A stretch of DNA of 64,000 bases from Marinicella marina (GCF_030065545.1 NZ_JASJNC010000005.1:124001-188000), one strand, 5' to 3'; counted from the stretch's first letter, positions 14,297-46,159 are shown. Made by a program: numbers and translations. The notes: a model not told the origin generated them from the letters alone.

Positions 14297-16174
14297 ATGT
14301 CATACAAATTAATTCTTAAATACTTGGTGCTGCTACTTGCCAGTGTCCAAGTTCATGCAGGCAGTCAAATTGATTTCACGCCACATGGCACACAACCAGG
14401 TCTTAACTTTTCATTAGAACCCTCTTCGAACTGTCAAGGATGCCACAAAGGAGGCAATGTAGCAGATGACAGTATTAATATGCCTAACAGAACATGGATG
14501 GGGTCAATGAAAGCCCATGCTACCCGCGACCCGTTATTTTGGGCTGCACTAGATGTAGCCAATAATGACCTTCCTGGTGTGGGTGATTTTTGCCTGCGGT
14601 GCCATACTCCAGATGGTTGGTTCAGAGGCAATGTTAAGCCAACTAAAGCCAGCCAATCCTTTATAGATGGGCCTAATGGATGTGAATTAACAGGTAACTA
14701 TATACTGCCTGAAAGTAAGCTGAATGATTATGGTGGAGTAAGTTGTCATTATTGTCACAGAATTGAGCCGATAGGCCCCGGTGGTGAAGCCGGTTTTTTA
14801 CAAAATGGTGACAATTGGATTGATGATGTGGCTTGTGAATCAGGCGGATTCGGTCCTTGCAGAAACGGACCATACAACGAACAGGATTATATGGATGGTG
14901 GCTCAACTCCACCCCATGCATGGGAAGGGTCCAATCATATTCAGTCTTCTGAATTTTGCGGGTCGTGTCATGATATTTCTTCCCCTGAAATTTTACAAAA
15001 TGGAATGTTGAGTATTGCCAGAAAATTTTGGAACGATGGTGTCGAAACAGACTTGCCTATGCCTATTGAGAGAACTTACAGTGAATGGAAGAACTCTTTA
15101 TTTGCTGATCTCATTTACAGAGACAGTATGGAAGTTGGGTTATCAGATGAGTTTCCTCTATTATTGGAAGGAGAAACTTGTCAAAGTTGTCACATGCCAC
15201 AATCAGAGAGTGAGGCTGCAAGGGCTTGTATTTTTGATGCTTTAGATGTTGATGGGAATGGTCGCAGGAAAGGTAATCTGCGCACACATCAGTTTGCTGG
15301 TGCCAATACTTGGATTCCTCAAGTTATTAAAACAATATACGGCGATCAACTTGAATCAATCAATGAAGGTATAAAAGAGTCGCTGGATTTATCCACCGAC
15401 TATGCCTTAAATAAGCTTCAAAATGAAAGTGCATTGATTGAAGCTACACTCACCAATCAAACCTCAGATGAGCTAAATATCAATGTTAAAGTAACTAACC
15501 TATCGGGTCATAAATTACCCACCAGTTATGCAGAAGGTCGCAGGATGTGGCTGCATATTGTGGCAAAAGATGGTGCCAATAATGCTTTTTGGGAAAGCGG
15601 TGCGTATGATGAAAACACTGGTATTTTAACAGAAGATACACAGTTGAAAGTTTATGAAGCTCTACAAGGTATTTGGAATCCTGACCCTGATGGAAATTCA
15701 AGCACAGAAGATGGTAATTGTGAAGTAAGTGATGAAAATGGAGACAAGATGTTTCATTTTGTCTTGAATAATTGTGTAGCTAAAGATAACAGGATTCCAC
15801 CATTAGGGTTTAGAGCTGCTGATAACATTGAGATGAAGCCAGTGGGGATTATATACACTCCTCGACCAGGCCACCCAGGCCAAGTGGTGAATTTTGATGT
15901 AACCAATTATCAAATTCCGGTCACCGGTGTTACTGGACCGTTCGTAATTGAAGCAACCTTAAAGTATCAAACTGCGAGCAAGGATTATATTGACTTTTTA
16001 GCGCGTGAGGCAACCGTCAATAATTTTGCAACAGAGAATGAGATGTGTGACAGAGATTGGGATATTGGTCCTGCCAATCAAAGTAGGGGGGCATTTATGA
16101 AGGAATTATGGGAAGAAAATGGACGTTCCGCTCCGGTTGATATGGTGATGGATTTTTTACAGGTGAATGAATGA
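14297..16174 (+). CDS. Secreted pentaheme c-type cytochrome
   Basis: A 625-residue protein with a signal peptide (cleavage near VHAG, residue 21) and five CXXCH haem sites at about residues 46-50, 99-103, 150-154, 221-225 and 295-299. After the last site (CQSCHMPQ) comes HQFAGAN, whose histidine is a likely distal haem ligand. The C-terminal 230 residues lack haem sites and form a beta-rich domain with SGHKLPTSYAEGRRMW, a segment I associate with large secreted multihaem cytochromes. It probably works as a periplasmic or surface electron carrier or oxidoreductase. It has too few haems for octahaem hydroxylamine-oxidoreductase-type enzymes. It overlaps the next gene by ATGA and heads a three-gene operon. 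Confidence 0.82.
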   Translation: MSYKLILKYLVLLLASVQVHAGSQIDFTPHGTQPGLNFSLEPSSNCQGCHKGGNVADDSINMPNRTWMGSMKAHATRDPLFWAALDVANNDLPGVGDFCLRCHTPDGWFRGNVKPTKASQSFIDGPNGCELTGNYILPESKLNDYGGVSCHYCHRIEPIGPGGEAGFLQNGDNWIDDVACESGGFGPCRNGPYNEQDYMDGGSTPPHAWEGSNHIQSSEFCGSCHDISSPEILQNGMLSIARKFWNDGVETDLPMPIERTYSEWKNSLFADLIYRDSMEVGLSDEFPLLLEGETCQSCHMPQSESEAARACIFDALDVDGNGRRKGNLRTHQFAGANTWIPQVIKTIYGDQLESINEGIKESLDLSTDYALNKLQNESALIEATLTNQTSDELNINVKVTNLSGHKLPTSYAEGRRMWLHIVAKDGANNAFWESGAYDENTGILTEDTQLKVYEALQGIWNPDPDGNSSTEDGNCEVSDENGDKMFHFVLNNCVAKDNRIPPLGFRAADNIEMKPVGIIYTPRPGHPGQVVNFDVTNYQIPVTGVTGPFVIEATLKYQTASKDYIDFLAREATVNNFATENEMCDRDWDIGPANQSRGAFMKELWEENGRSAPVDMVMDFLQVNE

Positions 16175-16797
16175 AGTATATATACATTCTATTGTTAACG
16201 TCTTTAACTTTTAATCCAGCACTCGCATTGGAAATATTGCCTTTTTACGAATCCGATTTGCCACCTTGGGCGATTGCGATAAAAAAAAATGAATCAGGCG
16301 AGTTTCTTGAGGTAACGACAAATCAATGGCATGACAAGGTGATGACTGATGAGGGGGAAAAAAGGTTCATCTATCGACAAGGTCATGATTATATTAAAAG
16401 ACAGGGTTTCTTGCGGACATACACTCACGACGAACAACTGGTCAATGAAGTGTATGATGTTGAAAATGACGCCAGTGTTATCAGAGAAGAAATATTCATT
16501 GCATTCGAGTTGTTTAAGATGCATCCAGAAATCAGGAAATTATTGATTGATGAAGGCCAGCCCATTATTTTGAACGGTGGTTTTAATTATCTGGATAAAG
16601 AGCCAACACAGCCTTGCTATTTTGGGAATAGATGCGTCCATGTGATGGCATCATCTGCAAACACAGCTATGGTTGCGCATGCAGTGGTAAGGTTATCTGA
16701 TAAAAGCATACCTTATCCACATTTTGATACTGATAAGGCTACTGAACAGGGCATTAAAAACAGAATAAAAAAAGTTTTAAAGCGGAAAATACAATGA
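16171..16797 (+). CDS. Secreted protein of unknown function
   Basis: A 208-residue protein with a clear signal peptide (ILLLTSLTFNPALA-LEIL). I do not recognise a family. The mature part has two cysteines (PCYFGNRC, possibly a disulphide) and a basic C-terminus (KNRIKKVLKRKIQ). It is sandwiched by ATGA overlaps between the pentaheme cytochrome and the CuAO-like protein, so the three products are likely made in fixed ratio and may form a complex or pathway in the periplasm. Function unknown. Confidence 0.6.
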   Translation: MKYIYILLLTSLTFNPALALEILPFYESDLPPWAIAIKKNESGEFLEVTTNQWHDKVMTDEGEKRFIYRQGHDYIKRQGFLRTYTHDEQLVNEVYDVENDASVIREEIFIAFELFKMHPEIRKLLIDEGQPIILNGGFNYLDKEPTQPCYFGNRCVHVMASSANTAMVAHAVVRLSDKSIPYPHFDTDKATEQGIKNRIKKVLKRKIQ

Positions 16798-18287
16798 AAA
16801 CAATAATACATAATGCAGTGGTTGCATTTTTCATGCTGTCCTACACGTTTTTTGTTCAAGCTGGATCTCCTAACTGTGATGGTTTTGGCGAAAATTATGT
16901 AGGCTGGCCTACACTGGAGCCTGTGTGGGAAATGTGCTATTTATCACCAGAAAACAGTTCAGCATCAAGGGGGTCGAGTTTAGAAGTCAGGAACGTGCAT
17001 TTGAATGGATTTTTGGTCTTGGAACGAGCACATATACCTATGTTGTTTGCTAATTATAGTAGTGGCACTTGCTACCGAGATTGGAAAGATACTTCGTCCA
17101 ATTTTTTACGAGCTGATGCCATTGAAAATCCTACAAGGCCTGCAATCACAACATGCGATATTTCAGTGGATGAAGATCTTCCTGTCGGTAACTGTCCTTT
17201 TCAGGATGTCAGTCCTGGGGGCAGCGGCACGGTAGGAAATGCAAATGACTGTACTTCTCAGGTACAAGTTGAGAAATACGATGACCGAATGGTGATAACA
17301 ACTAATCATTCTGCTGATTGGTATAAATACTCTGCAAGATATGTTTTTCATGAAGATGGTCGTATAGAACCTAGGTTTGGTTTTGGCAACAGCGATGGTA
17401 CATTCAGTGGCACAACCCATTGGCACCATGCTTATTGGCGATTTAACTTTGATATTGAAGGTGGTGATAATGACCTGGTATACATTGTTGATCAAAATGG
17501 AGAAAATTTACAAACCACTGAGTTTACAGATTTAAGGGAAATTACCAGTGGAAAAGCCAATGATCCTAATACCTTTGATGATGAAGTTACATGGTTGGTT
17601 AAGGACAGTGTTAGTGGTCGTGGATATCGAATGGTACCTGGTTTTGACGGTGATTCCCAGTTGGGTTTTATCGATGATTACAGCGTTCCTGCTGATCCCA
17701 GCCTGGATAATTACCACGAAGTAGACGTGATGGTTTCACGATACAAGCTGATCAACGGTAGCTTAACAGAATACTCAGATACACCAGGTCAGAATAGTTT
17801 GGGTAACTGTTCTATGGATGAAACAAGAATAGTCGATAATGAGACACTGGTCAATGAAGACCCTGTGTTGTGGTACCGCGCAGCTGTGAATGACATTGCT
17901 AATCAAGGTATGTTATGTAAAACAGCAGGTCCTACATTGTATCCAGTGGGTGACTGGGGTATTGATCAAGCACCGGTTGCGGTCGCAGATGCCGCTCAAG
18001 TTGAGGAAAACAGCGTTGATAACGTACTTGACCTGTTGTCCAATGACACTGACACGGATGGTGGAGAACAGTTCATTGCATCAGTGACTCAGCCAGTAAA
18101 TGGAGCGGTGGTCATTGGTGTTGATGGTGCCGATGTCAGTTACACTCCAGACGTTGATTACTGTAATGATGGCAGCCCAACTGATGATTTCAATTATACT
18201 TTGAACGGTGGTTCATCAGCCACAGCCGCGGTTACCGTAACTTGTTTCATCGATTTGGATTTAATTTTTGAGGATGGTTTCGAATAA
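16794..18287 (+). CDS. Secreted protein, remote copper-amine-oxidase-like, Ig-like C-terminus and GFE tail
   Basis: A 497-residue protein with a signal peptide (cleavage at VQA-GSPN). The middle part has a weak resemblance to the catalytic beta-sandwich of copper amine oxidases: RYVFHEDGRIEPRFGFG followed by a histidine-rich strand THWHHAYWRFNFDI, comparable to the HQHFF copper motif. However, the N-Y-D/E topaquinone site is not visible, so enzymatic amine oxidation is doubtful. Residues about 390-480 form a cadherin/Ig-like bacterial repeat (NSVDNVLDLLSNDTDTDGG). The protein ends LIFEDGFE, a tail also seen in the glycine-rich protein at 43970-46159. It is the third gene of the pentaheme operon and is followed by a strong terminator. 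Confidence 0.55.
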   Translation: MKTIIHNAVVAFFMLSYTFFVQAGSPNCDGFGENYVGWPTLEPVWEMCYLSPENSSASRGSSLEVRNVHLNGFLVLERAHIPMLFANYSSGTCYRDWKDTSSNFLRADAIENPTRPAITTCDISVDEDLPVGNCPFQDVSPGGSGTVGNANDCTSQVQVEKYDDRMVITTNHSADWYKYSARYVFHEDGRIEPRFGFGNSDGTFSGTTHWHHAYWRFNFDIEGGDNDLVYIVDQNGENLQTTEFTDLREITSGKANDPNTFDDEVTWLVKDSVSGRGYRMVPGFDGDSQLGFIDDYSVPADPSLDNYHEVDVMVSRYKLINGSLTEYSDTPGQNSLGNCSMDETRIVDNETLVNEDPVLWYRAAVNDIANQGMLCKTAGPTLYPVGDWGIDQAPVAVADAAQVEENSVDNVLDLLSNDTDTDGGEQFIASVTQPVNGAVVIGVDGADVSYTPDVDYCNDGSPTDDFNYTLNGGSSATAAVTVTCFIDLDLIFEDGFE

Positions 18288-18314
18288 CCAAGAACCTAAT
18301 CCTATTAAATGTAT

Positions 18315-18345
18315 AAAAAAAGGCCCGTTTGTAGGGCCTTTTTTT
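18315..18345 (+). terminator. Rho-independent terminator of the cytochrome operon
   Basis: An A-run, AGGCCC (18321-18326), a 7-nt loop, GGGCCT (18334-18339) and a run of seven T make a classic intrinsic terminator 28 nt after the stop codon at 18287. The flanking A and T runs make it potentially bidirectional. Confidence 0.9.
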
Positions 18346-18385
18346 ATTGGGTTATACTATTGATTTGTTGCGGAAGGTTGAAACG

Positions 18386-43969: not shown

Positions 43970-46159
43970 ATGATTAAAGAACCAAAACATTCACTAAAAC
44001 AATTCAAAAGAAACCTATTGTGCAGCGCCATATCGATCTGCCTTCCATTAAGCATTCAAGCGGCTGATTTTCCGGTGACTGTATCGAATGATGATGGCAC
44101 TGGAAATACAGTTGGTACTTTAAGCCACGCCATCAGAGAAGCCAACGTCACACTTGGTATCGAACATAACATCATCTTACAAACTGATGTGACTGTTCAA
44201 GGTGTTATGAAGCGCTTAATCGACTCAAATGTTACCATTCAGAGTGATGGCACGCGAAGAACCATAGACGGTAACAGTCAATTCAGACCCTTGTTTGTTA
44301 AATCTGGTAATGTCACCATTCAAGGTGTAGATATCATTAACGGATATGCGAGCGGTGGTGATGGTCTAGGTGGTGGAGCGGGCATGGGCGGTAGCCTATT
44401 TGTTTACGATGGCAATGTGACACTTAATGAAACCGTCTTTTCTGGTTCAATAGCAAAAGGTGGCTTGTCCGATAACAGCCTTTCAGGCGGCGGTGGCATG
44501 TTTGGCCAAGCAGAGAATGGGGGTGGCGGTCTGTTTGCCTCCGCAGCAGGTGGTTATGGTGGAACTGGTGGATATTATAGCGGCTTTGGTCATGGCGGTG
44601 ATACTGCTGAGAACGGCCAAGGTGGTTATTTTGGTGGCGGTGGTGGTTTAGGGTTTAGTGGCGCAGCAGGCCCAGGTGGTTTTGGCGGTGGTGGTGCTTT
44701 AGGTATTGAATTAACTTTTCCAGGTCCAGTGATAACAAATACCTATGGAGCAGGTGGGTTTGGCGGGGGAAGCATTGACGACCCTGGCTACGGCGCATCA
44801 GCCAACGGTGCCGGTATGGGTGGTGCCGTGTTCATACGCAGTGGAAATATTGACATAAAAAACAGTAGCTTTGAATACAGTGAAACCACAGCATCTTCAG
44901 GAGCCAGGGGTTTAGGTGGCGGAATATTCGTCATGCACACAATGACCAACAGCAACGGCAATAACCAAGGCATGCCAGCACAACTCGCAACTGTAACAGG
45001 ATGTGGCAATGAATTTTTTGCTAATATTGCCTCAGGCGCATCTGGCGTTCCTGGTGATAACAATGATATTTTCGATGTAGGTGGCTTGGCTGAAGATTTA
45101 ACCCAGCTTTGCCCACAGGAACAAAATTTAATAGTGACTGTCGCTGAAGATGATGGCACCGGATCGACAGAGAACACCCTCAGTTGGGCCATCAAAGAAT
45201 CTAATGCCCTATCAGGTGATGACACCATCACATTGGCCACCGATGTGACTATAACTGGTGTGATGAAACGCTTGATTGACTCCAATGTAACCATCCAAAG
45301 TGATGACACCCGAAGAAGCATCAGTGGTAACGGACAATACAGACCTTTGTTCGTTAAATCAGGCACTGTATCCATTCAAGGTGTGGACATGATTAACGGC
45401 TATGCCAAAGGTGGTGATGGCTATTCCGGTGGTGCTGGCATGGGTGGTGGTTTATTTATTTATGATGGTGTCGTTACGATTGCAGACACCCATTTCAGTT
45501 ATTCCTCTGCCATCGGTGGATCAGGAGAAGTTTACTTAGGTGGCGGTGGTGGTATGTTTGGTCATGGAGATGCCGCTGGCGGTGGACTGTTTGCCTCAGC
45601 AGCTGGCTCATACAATGGAGATGGCGGATATTATGGCGCTTTTGGTCGTGGTGGTAACCTTGACGGTGGCAATGGTCAGTTTGGTGGAGGGGGTGGTGTA
45701 TCTTATATAGGTTCCGGTGGTAATGGTGGTTTTGGTGGCGGTGGTGGTGATAAAAGTGCGCTCTCCGGCGATGTGGGAAGTGGCGGTTTTGGCGGAGGCA
45801 GTGAAGATAACCCTGGTTTTGGCGCCACTGATGACGGTGCCGGCATGGGCGGCGCTGTTTTTATCAGAAGTGGTCAGGTAACCATCAAAGGTTCAAGTTT
45901 TAGCAACAATGCAGCCGATGGTGGTCAGGCAGCTGGATTTGGGGGCGCTATTTTTGTTGTACACACGACAAGTAACAGCAACTCAAATAACCAAGGTATG
46001 CCTGCTAATCTTGCAGATGTAGAGATTTGCGATGTTCAATTCAGCAACAATTTGGCCTCAACATCAGCAGGCACATCGAATAACAACAATGATTGGTTCG
46101 ATCAGGGTGGTCAAATATCTTTAACTGAATGTCCGATATTCAAAAGTGGTTTTGAGTGA
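43970..46159 (+). CDS. Secreted glycine-rich protein with tandem duplication and GFE tail
   Basis: A 729-residue protein from ATG 43970 (a GTG at 43958 is also in frame). A signal peptide (AISICLPLSIQAA) precedes two tandem copies of a roughly 350-residue unit. Each unit has a DDGTG-TL-AI-E-N segment like the start of bacterial right-handed beta-helix proteins, a 16-residue block identical in both copies (GVMKRLIDSNVTIQSD), an IQGVD-INGYA strand, and a long glycine-rich stretch full of GGGGMFG and GGFGGG runs. It ends CPIFKSGFE, like the protein at 16794-18287. It is probably a surface or extracellular structural/adhesive protein; function is unknown. Confidence 0.75.
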   Translation: MIKEPKHSLKQFKRNLLCSAISICLPLSIQAADFPVTVSNDDGTGNTVGTLSHAIREANVTLGIEHNIILQTDVTVQGVMKRLIDSNVTIQSDGTRRTIDGNSQFRPLFVKSGNVTIQGVDIINGYASGGDGLGGGAGMGGSLFVYDGNVTLNETVFSGSIAKGGLSDNSLSGGGGMFGQAENGGGGLFASAAGGYGGTGGYYSGFGHGGDTAENGQGGYFGGGGGLGFSGAAGPGGFGGGGALGIELTFPGPVITNTYGAGGFGGGSIDDPGYGASANGAGMGGAVFIRSGNIDIKNSSFEYSETTASSGARGLGGGIFVMHTMTNSNGNNQGMPAQLATVTGCGNEFFANIASGASGVPGDNNDIFDVGGLAEDLTQLCPQEQNLIVTVAEDDGTGSTENTLSWAIKESNALSGDDTITLATDVTITGVMKRLIDSNVTIQSDDTRRSISGNGQYRPLFVKSGTVSIQGVDMINGYAKGGDGYSGGAGMGGGLFIYDGVVTIADTHFSYSSAIGGSGEVYLGGGGGMFGHGDAAGGGLFASAAGSYNGDGGYYGAFGRGGNLDGGNGQFGGGGGVSYIGSGGNGGFGGGGGDKSALSGDVGSGGFGGGSEDNPGFGATDDGAGMGGAVFIRSGQVTIKGSSFSNNAADGGQAAGFGGAIFVVHTTSNSNSNNQGMPANLADVEICDVQFSNNLASTSAGTSNNNNDWFDQGGQISLTECPIFKSGFE

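Follow-up and report, generated by a model that had tools for sequence, protein, structure and literature searches.

Genes for a probable split copper amine oxidase-like enzyme adjoin an exported pentahaem cytochrome gene in Marinicella marina

What might an exported multihaem cytochrome do beside a remote relative of the copper amine oxidases (CuAOs) and a small protein that matches no known family? The question is raised by three consecutive genes of Marinicella marina, found on the forward strand of the 64,000-nucleotide stretch that we analysed (GCF_030065545.1, NZ_JASJNC010000005.1:124001-188000; hereafter the window, with positions counted from its first letter). Gene 1 (14297-16174, 625 amino acids [aa]) encodes an exported pentahaem c-type cytochrome; gene 2 (16171-16797, 208 aa) encodes an exported protein that appears equivalent to part of CuAO domain D2 plus D3, and gene 3 (16794-18287, 497 aa) an exported protein whose predicted fold is that of the CuAO catalytic domain, D4. 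The open reading frames (ORFs) are joined by ATGA overlaps at 16171-16174 and 16794-16797, and each product starts with a Sec-type signal peptide, recognised by eye (VHA^GS, ALA^LE, and VQA^GS, respectively). The overlaps, the signal peptides, and five haem motifs had been reported in an initial annotation of this DNA, and all were confirmed in the ORFs. The ratio of nonsynonymous to synonymous substitution rates (dN/dS) is 0.05-0.17 for each of the three genes, all of which are under strong purifying selection. Our reading, to which we assign a probability of about 0.5, is that a split CuAO-type enzyme, encoded by genes 2 and 3, oxidises an amine or similar compound and delivers the electrons to the pentahaem cytochrome.

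The gene 3 product had been described as remotely CuAO-like, and structure prediction bears this out. It matches the CuAO family model PF01179 with an E value of 8.9e-6, scoring 25.3 bits over its full length and 26.8 for the core, against a gathering score of 27 that is not reached; 14 of 24 gene 3 homologues match the model at E 0.01 or better. An AlphaFold (AF2) model of the core has a predicted local distance difference test score (pLDDT) of 82. Foldseek relates this model to CuAOs with an E value of 1e-13, and VIA-align superposes it on D4 of the Arthrobacter globiformis enzyme, AGAO, with a Z score of 26.6 over 286 aligned residues (root mean square deviation, 3.3). On the predicted structure, then, the gene 3 product is a homologue of the CuAO catalytic domain. 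D2 and D3 are missing from its chain, and a D2-D3-like fold is encoded separately by gene 2. Direct sequence searches of the PDB with genes 1, 2, or 3 or with profile A1 gave no useful match. A genome search found no canonical CuAO in the same genome, and gene 3 is therefore the sole superfamily member that the Pfam model could have indicated.

Gene 2 was called unrecognised in the initial annotation, and indeed no Pfam family matched it; its predicted fold, however, is that of CuAO D2-D3. The AF2 model, built from 22 homologues, has a pLDDT of 92, and a Foldseek search with it returned CuAOs at all of ranks 1 to 15 among solved structures (best E value, 3.8e-5). The top VIA-align result is the D2-D3 region of AGAO, residues 32-192 (Z score of 7.9 over 142 residues), and the unrelated folds ranked below it cover merely ∼50 to 65 residues. 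As far as the model goes, gene 2 encodes a CuAO D2-D3-like protein, the N-terminal half of a CuAO, which assigns a fold to a family for which Pfam has no matching model. The predicted fold, together with the exact co-occurrence of genes 2 and 3, ruled out an unrelated orphan. Gene 2 homologues in other families of the order have starts that look by eye like those of lipoproteins (L046, LLASAC; L047, LVLPGC; L050, LLLHGC; L051, LLLAAC); a strict lipoprotein regular expression passed L046 and L051 alone.

Since the predicted fold of gene 2 is D2-D3 and that of gene 3 is D4, the two genes would represent a CuAO in two pieces, arranged in the canonical order. The closest relatives of gene 3 found outside the order are the C-terminal parts of single-chain proteins of 518 to 555 aa from Variovorax sp. 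WDL1, Nonomuraea gerenzanensis, and the genome G232 (hhalign E value, 6e-41). These proteins align with canonical CuAOs from D2 to D4 (444 columns; E value, 1.3e-14) and unite both halves, so that the trio holds as two exported proteins what is elsewhere one. The Variovorax protein (WP_162487223.1) is 28 to 31% identical to gene 3 homologues, and the single-chain variants share with them a GWYRY motif and an HxHHxYWR block; unlike the trio, they have both halves in one chain, no signal peptide by eye, a retained third histidine (HFTHD), and in no case a noted cytochrome neighbour. We consider it very likely that the products of genes 2 and 3 are parts of a single, split CuAO-like enzyme. The three-part secreted redox module originally proposed thus keeps its pentahaem cytochrome and its CuAO-like protein, but its second and third parts become halves of one enzyme; the fold prediction that had been suggested as a check gave CuAO D2-D3 and D4 folds for them. 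On plasmid 3 of Variovorax sp. WDL1 (L203:5341-9122), the single-chain gene adjoins a galactose/glyoxal-oxidase-like gene.

A search for co-occurrence had also been suggested, with the possibility raised that the genes are not conserved together in any relative. This is clearly contradicted by a profile search of 190 genomes of the order, 29 of which hold the complete trio. Gene 2 was found in 30 genomes and gene 3 in the identical 30, 29 of which also have the cytochrome (profile A3; 48 genomes in all); none of the other 160 genomes holds gene 2 or gene 3 singly. The agreement between genes 2 and 3 is partly built in, because the profile rows came mostly from these same genomes; in six genomes new to the profiles (G433, G445, G448, G451, G457, and G490), the two genes are again adjacent and in the same order. 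Close homologues of gene 3 were found both within its own genus and across several further families of the order, the named matches being from Marinicella, Dokdonella, Tahibacter, Pseudofulvimonas, and metagenome-assembled genomes of Lysobacterales, and in nearly every locus whose contig allowed inspection the cytochrome, gene 2, and gene 3 lie on the same strand in this order. Beyond the order, profile A1 found distant relatives only, in G232 and G133 among 369 genomes of the class, nothing outside the order among 398 genomes of the phylum, and three records in a plasmid collection.

The active site of gene 3 was mapped by profile-profile alignment with canonical CuAOs, by MAFFT with intermediate sequences (alignment A4), and through the single-chain relatives; the three routes concur on the tyrosine, the HxH pair, and the third-ligand position. 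AGAO numbering and residue roles were taken from the literature (PMC3382800, PMC9491219), and invariance was counted over 24 gene 3 homologues. The segment Trp176-Tyr177-Lys178-Tyr179 (codons at 17319..17330, forward strand, as are all codons given here) is ungapped in the profile-profile alignment and in A4. Tyr177 aligns with the topaquinone precursor Tyr382 and Tyr179 with Tyr384, and Trp176 occupies the position of Asn381; all three are invariant (24/24). So are His209 and His211 of the segment His209-Trp-His211 (17418..17426), which align with the HxH copper ligands His431 and His433, and Tyr88, Tyr94, and Asp96 (17055..17081), matched to Tyr284, Tyr296, and the catalytic base Asp298. Tyr88 was placed by A4 and the single-chain bridge; the placement of Tyr94 and Asp96 comes from the MAFFT alignment A4 only and is tentative, and hhalign with the single-chain relatives places the Asp96 stretch otherwise, so that Asp96 is best described as probably corresponding to Asp298. 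Asp367 (17892..17894) occupies the position of AGAO His592, which is the third copper ligand, and the metal site appears to use two histidines and one aspartate; most of the remaining active-site positions are retained.

Because Tyr177, Tyr179, and the HxH pair are invariant while the replacements at Asp367 and Trp176 are invariant as well, the gene 2-3 enzyme is not a canonical CuAO, and it has not decayed either; a decayed remnant was ruled out by the invariant active-site columns and by dN/dS. It resembles the CuAOs (PF01179; AGAO and the Escherichia coli enzyme ECAO) in having a D2-D3 fold followed by a D4 fold, a tyrosine at the topaquinone position, equivalents of Tyr384 and Tyr284, and the HxH copper pair. 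It differs in being made of two polypeptides rather than one, exported with a pentahaem cytochrome, and in its shorter D4, the Asp at His592, the Trp at Asn381, and a score slightly under the Pfam cut-off. Such deviations from the canonical motifs could also mark a pseudoenzyme that reuses the CuAO fold to bind a metal or a substrate, for example as a copper- or amine-scavenging surface complex; the extra domain (Big_9) and C-terminal tail of gene 3 suggest a surface location, and degenerate D4 copies occur in G133. We think this quite unlikely, given the strong purifying selection and the invariance, across several families, of active-site positions that include catalytic rather than structural residues.

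The putative electron acceptor consists of a haem domain (aa ∼40 to 310) and a C-terminal beta domain, which carries the motifs NLSGHKLPTSYAEGRR and GHKLPT. Its five CxxCH motifs (CQGCH, CLRCH, CHYCH, CGSCH, and CQSCH) have counterparts in every full-length homologue counted, each with five; four more histidines are conserved (207, 331, 405, and 487), and PF14522 (Cytochrome_C7) matches with an E value of 1.2e-6. The nearest solved protein is the cytochrome c552 of entry 5ze8, which we take to be the pentahaem c552 of T. tepidum; the match is weak (E value, 0.0097), with its best stretch confined to the beta domain, and that to Geobacter ExtKL (E value, 0.001) is far below the cut-off. Despite this weak sequence link, gene 1 shares with the group of c552, ExtKL, and MccSep a C-terminal beta domain with an N-x-x-GH-x-x-P-x-G stretch, and, being exported and having five c-type haem motifs, it parallels c552 and ExtKL, which carry five haems. 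For that group, roles in extracellular electron transfer have been proposed, or the roles are unknown (PMC11976967, which also gives the identity of the c552 protein).

In the mechanism that we propose, the products of genes 2 and 3 would come together once exported, and would do so at a membrane wherever the gene 2 product is a lipoprotein. An amine or similar compound would then most likely be oxidised, beyond the cytoplasm, by means of a cofactor derived from a tyrosine; the substrate, the cofactor, and the identity of the metal are all presumptive. Electrons would pass to the pentahaem cytochrome, which is co-translated, either in place of O2 or in addition to it, as the genomic association suggests. 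The initial annotation had spoken of an extracellular oxidation or electron-transfer module; the signal peptides indicate export to the periplasm or beyond, but the electron transfer is something that we infer. An analogy is provided by NicA2 and Pnao, "amine oxidase"-family enzymes that share an operon with a cytochrome c acceptor, CycN, and proved to be cytochrome-dependent dehydrogenases (PMC9396064); these are flavin enzymes with another cytochrome c and no homology to the trio, and the likeness goes no further. A narrower form of our proposal, advanced tentatively, is that a CuAO-fold quinoprotein of two secreted subunits, with a 2-His-1-Asp site, serves as a dehydrogenase for an amine or related compound, wired to the pentahaem cytochrome, and represents a CuAO lineage that abandoned O2 in favour of an electron acceptor of respiratory or extracellular kind. 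The split enzyme might instead be an ordinary oxidase that uses O2 and makes H2O2, the cytochrome removing the peroxide or having an unrelated job. The CuAO superfamily uses O2 (PMC3382800), the cytochrome is kept alone in many relatives and so has a job of its own, and a split CuAO set lies beside a dihaem protein of the cytochrome c peroxidase (CCP)/MauG type in G133. Such an oxidase is nevertheless unlikely in our view: the third of the copper ligands found in canonical, O2-using enzymes is altered, the pair is accompanied by the cytochrome in all but one of its 30 genomes, and the reading frames overlap in the window.

Several observations weigh against the proposal that a split CuAO-type enzyme passes its electrons to the cytochrome. 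In CuAOs three copper-binding histidines are strictly conserved, and the precursor tyrosine lies inside the consensus T-X-X-N-Y-D/E (PMC3382800); the gene 3 family breaks that consensus, with Trp for Asn and Lys or other residues for Asp/Glu, and has Asp at the third-ligand position in 24/24 homologues, where the single-chain relatives have His. With the metal site altered and the consensus lost, neither copper nor topaquinone can therefore be assumed. The assignment of gene 2 to D2-D3 depends on the predicted fold, and its VIA-align Z score is middling taken alone; by hhalign, the gene 2 profile matches canonical CuAOs weakly, at the D2/D3 junction (P = 0.005), and the N termini of the single-chain relatives weakly as well (P = 0.016). 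The cytochrome, moreover, occurs without the gene 2-3 pair in 19 of the 190 genomes, with all haem motifs intact in the pair-less proteins inspected, and on these grounds a cytochrome devoted to the enzyme was ruled out.

Several genomes of the same genus have the cytochrome alone at the syntenic locus, with the same flanking genes; since it is kept there without the pair, it must be useful independently of the enzyme. A tree of 40 cytochromes requires 8 changes between the states with pair and alone, at least 5 of them forced by well-supported branches, and in G056 (L195:7823-8140) an intact cytochrome is followed by the apparent first codons of gene 2 and ∼80 last codons of gene 3, which looks like a deletion relic. 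From the changes of state and this relic we conclude that the pair is gained or lost as one unit. Among 152 conserved cytochrome columns, 5 relax where the pair is missing, compared with a mean of 2.4 (maximum, 9) in random splits, and the relaxation is therefore not specific to loss of the pair. The cytochrome might also be a maturase that oxidises Tyr177 (and perhaps Trp176) to build the cofactor, in the way that methylamine dehydrogenase is matured by MauG. That would suit an altered self-processing site that has Asp for His and Trp for Asn but retains its tyrosine, and in G133 a MauG/CCP-like dihaem protein adjoins the related split CuAO. For a dedicated maturase, however, it is unexpected that all five haem motifs and the conserved histidines stay intact in pair-less genomes, and no cytochrome gene is annotated beside the Variovorax single-chain relative; we consider a maturase very improbable. 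The independent use of the cytochrome leads us to favour a general electron carrier coupled to the enzyme. Tandem or paired pentahaem cytochromes occur at L046:11058-14635, L053:5049-8917, L048:5060-13211, and L200; L048 also has two copies of gene 3.

A literature search for a split CuAO, or for a CuAO whose operon includes a multihaem cytochrome, found no description in sources that left most subscription journals outside its scope; in a review, CuAOs are described as homodimers of a single chain that have three His ligands and use O2 as the acceptor (PMC3382800). The trio enzyme is a new variant inside the CuAO fold superfamily and, by feature tests, not a canonical CuAO. If the proposal is true, a natural split CuAO that has an invariant Asp for one ligand and is linked to a multihaem cytochrome would show the fold rewired from oxidase to dehydrogenase, and the family would offer a natural way to test which residues topaquinone formation requires.

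The operon is closed by an intrinsic terminator on the forward strand (18300..18347), a hairpin AAAAAAAGGCCC-loop-GGGCCTTTTTTT with a stem of 13 to 14 bp and a T-run; the folding energy is -21.6 kcal/mol for 18285-18352 (z score, -3.7), in keeping with the strong terminator noted earlier. The terminator is absent from the output of a simple terminator scanner, probably because the T-run forms part of the stem. The flanking genes encode a small helix-hairpin-helix protein, on the opposite strand at the 5' side, and a DUF4287/DUF5655 protein at the 3' side.

Beyond D4, gene 3 encodes a Big_9 (bacterial Ig/cadherin-like) domain (17964..18242, forward strand; aa 391 to 483; PF17963 E value, 1.3e-11), not present in many homologues, and a C-terminal tail, I-F-E-D-G-F-E (18264..18287, forward strand). 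The pattern IFxxGFE ends 21 ORFs of the genome (G000, L158-L178), compared with 0 for the reversed pattern, and many of these ORFs have export signals; within the window it occurs at 18264-18287 and 46139-46159, and it is found in Lysobacterales homologues too. It resembles a tag that an unnamed export system would use for sorting or processing. The neighbouring family CL19 was ruled out as a CuAO relative, since hhalign shows a shared tail only. In other families of the order, the trio or the lone cytochrome is adjoined by an exported family of ∼600 to 700 aa (L046:14645-16456, L047:12534-14486, L048:679-3183, L050:10270-12243, L051:3086-5143, L194:3733-5865, and L200:7890-11804), which has the motifs DQHPxLxW and KHAxxT, often an FE tail, and no Pfam or NCBIfam match; this family may serve the cytochrome as an alternative partner.

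G133, which belongs to another order, has tandem D4-only CuAOs (L138:5362-11323, L154:6321-11706, and L155:6040-7419), one copy of each pair with the canonical His and Tyr residues and the other degenerate. One cluster also contains a faint gene 2 homologue (E value, 9e-5), a YtkA-like protein, and the MauG/CCP-type dihaem protein. The faintness of that match and the different haem partner ruled out these paralogues as the same system; the tandem genes may encode a heterodimeric CuAO.

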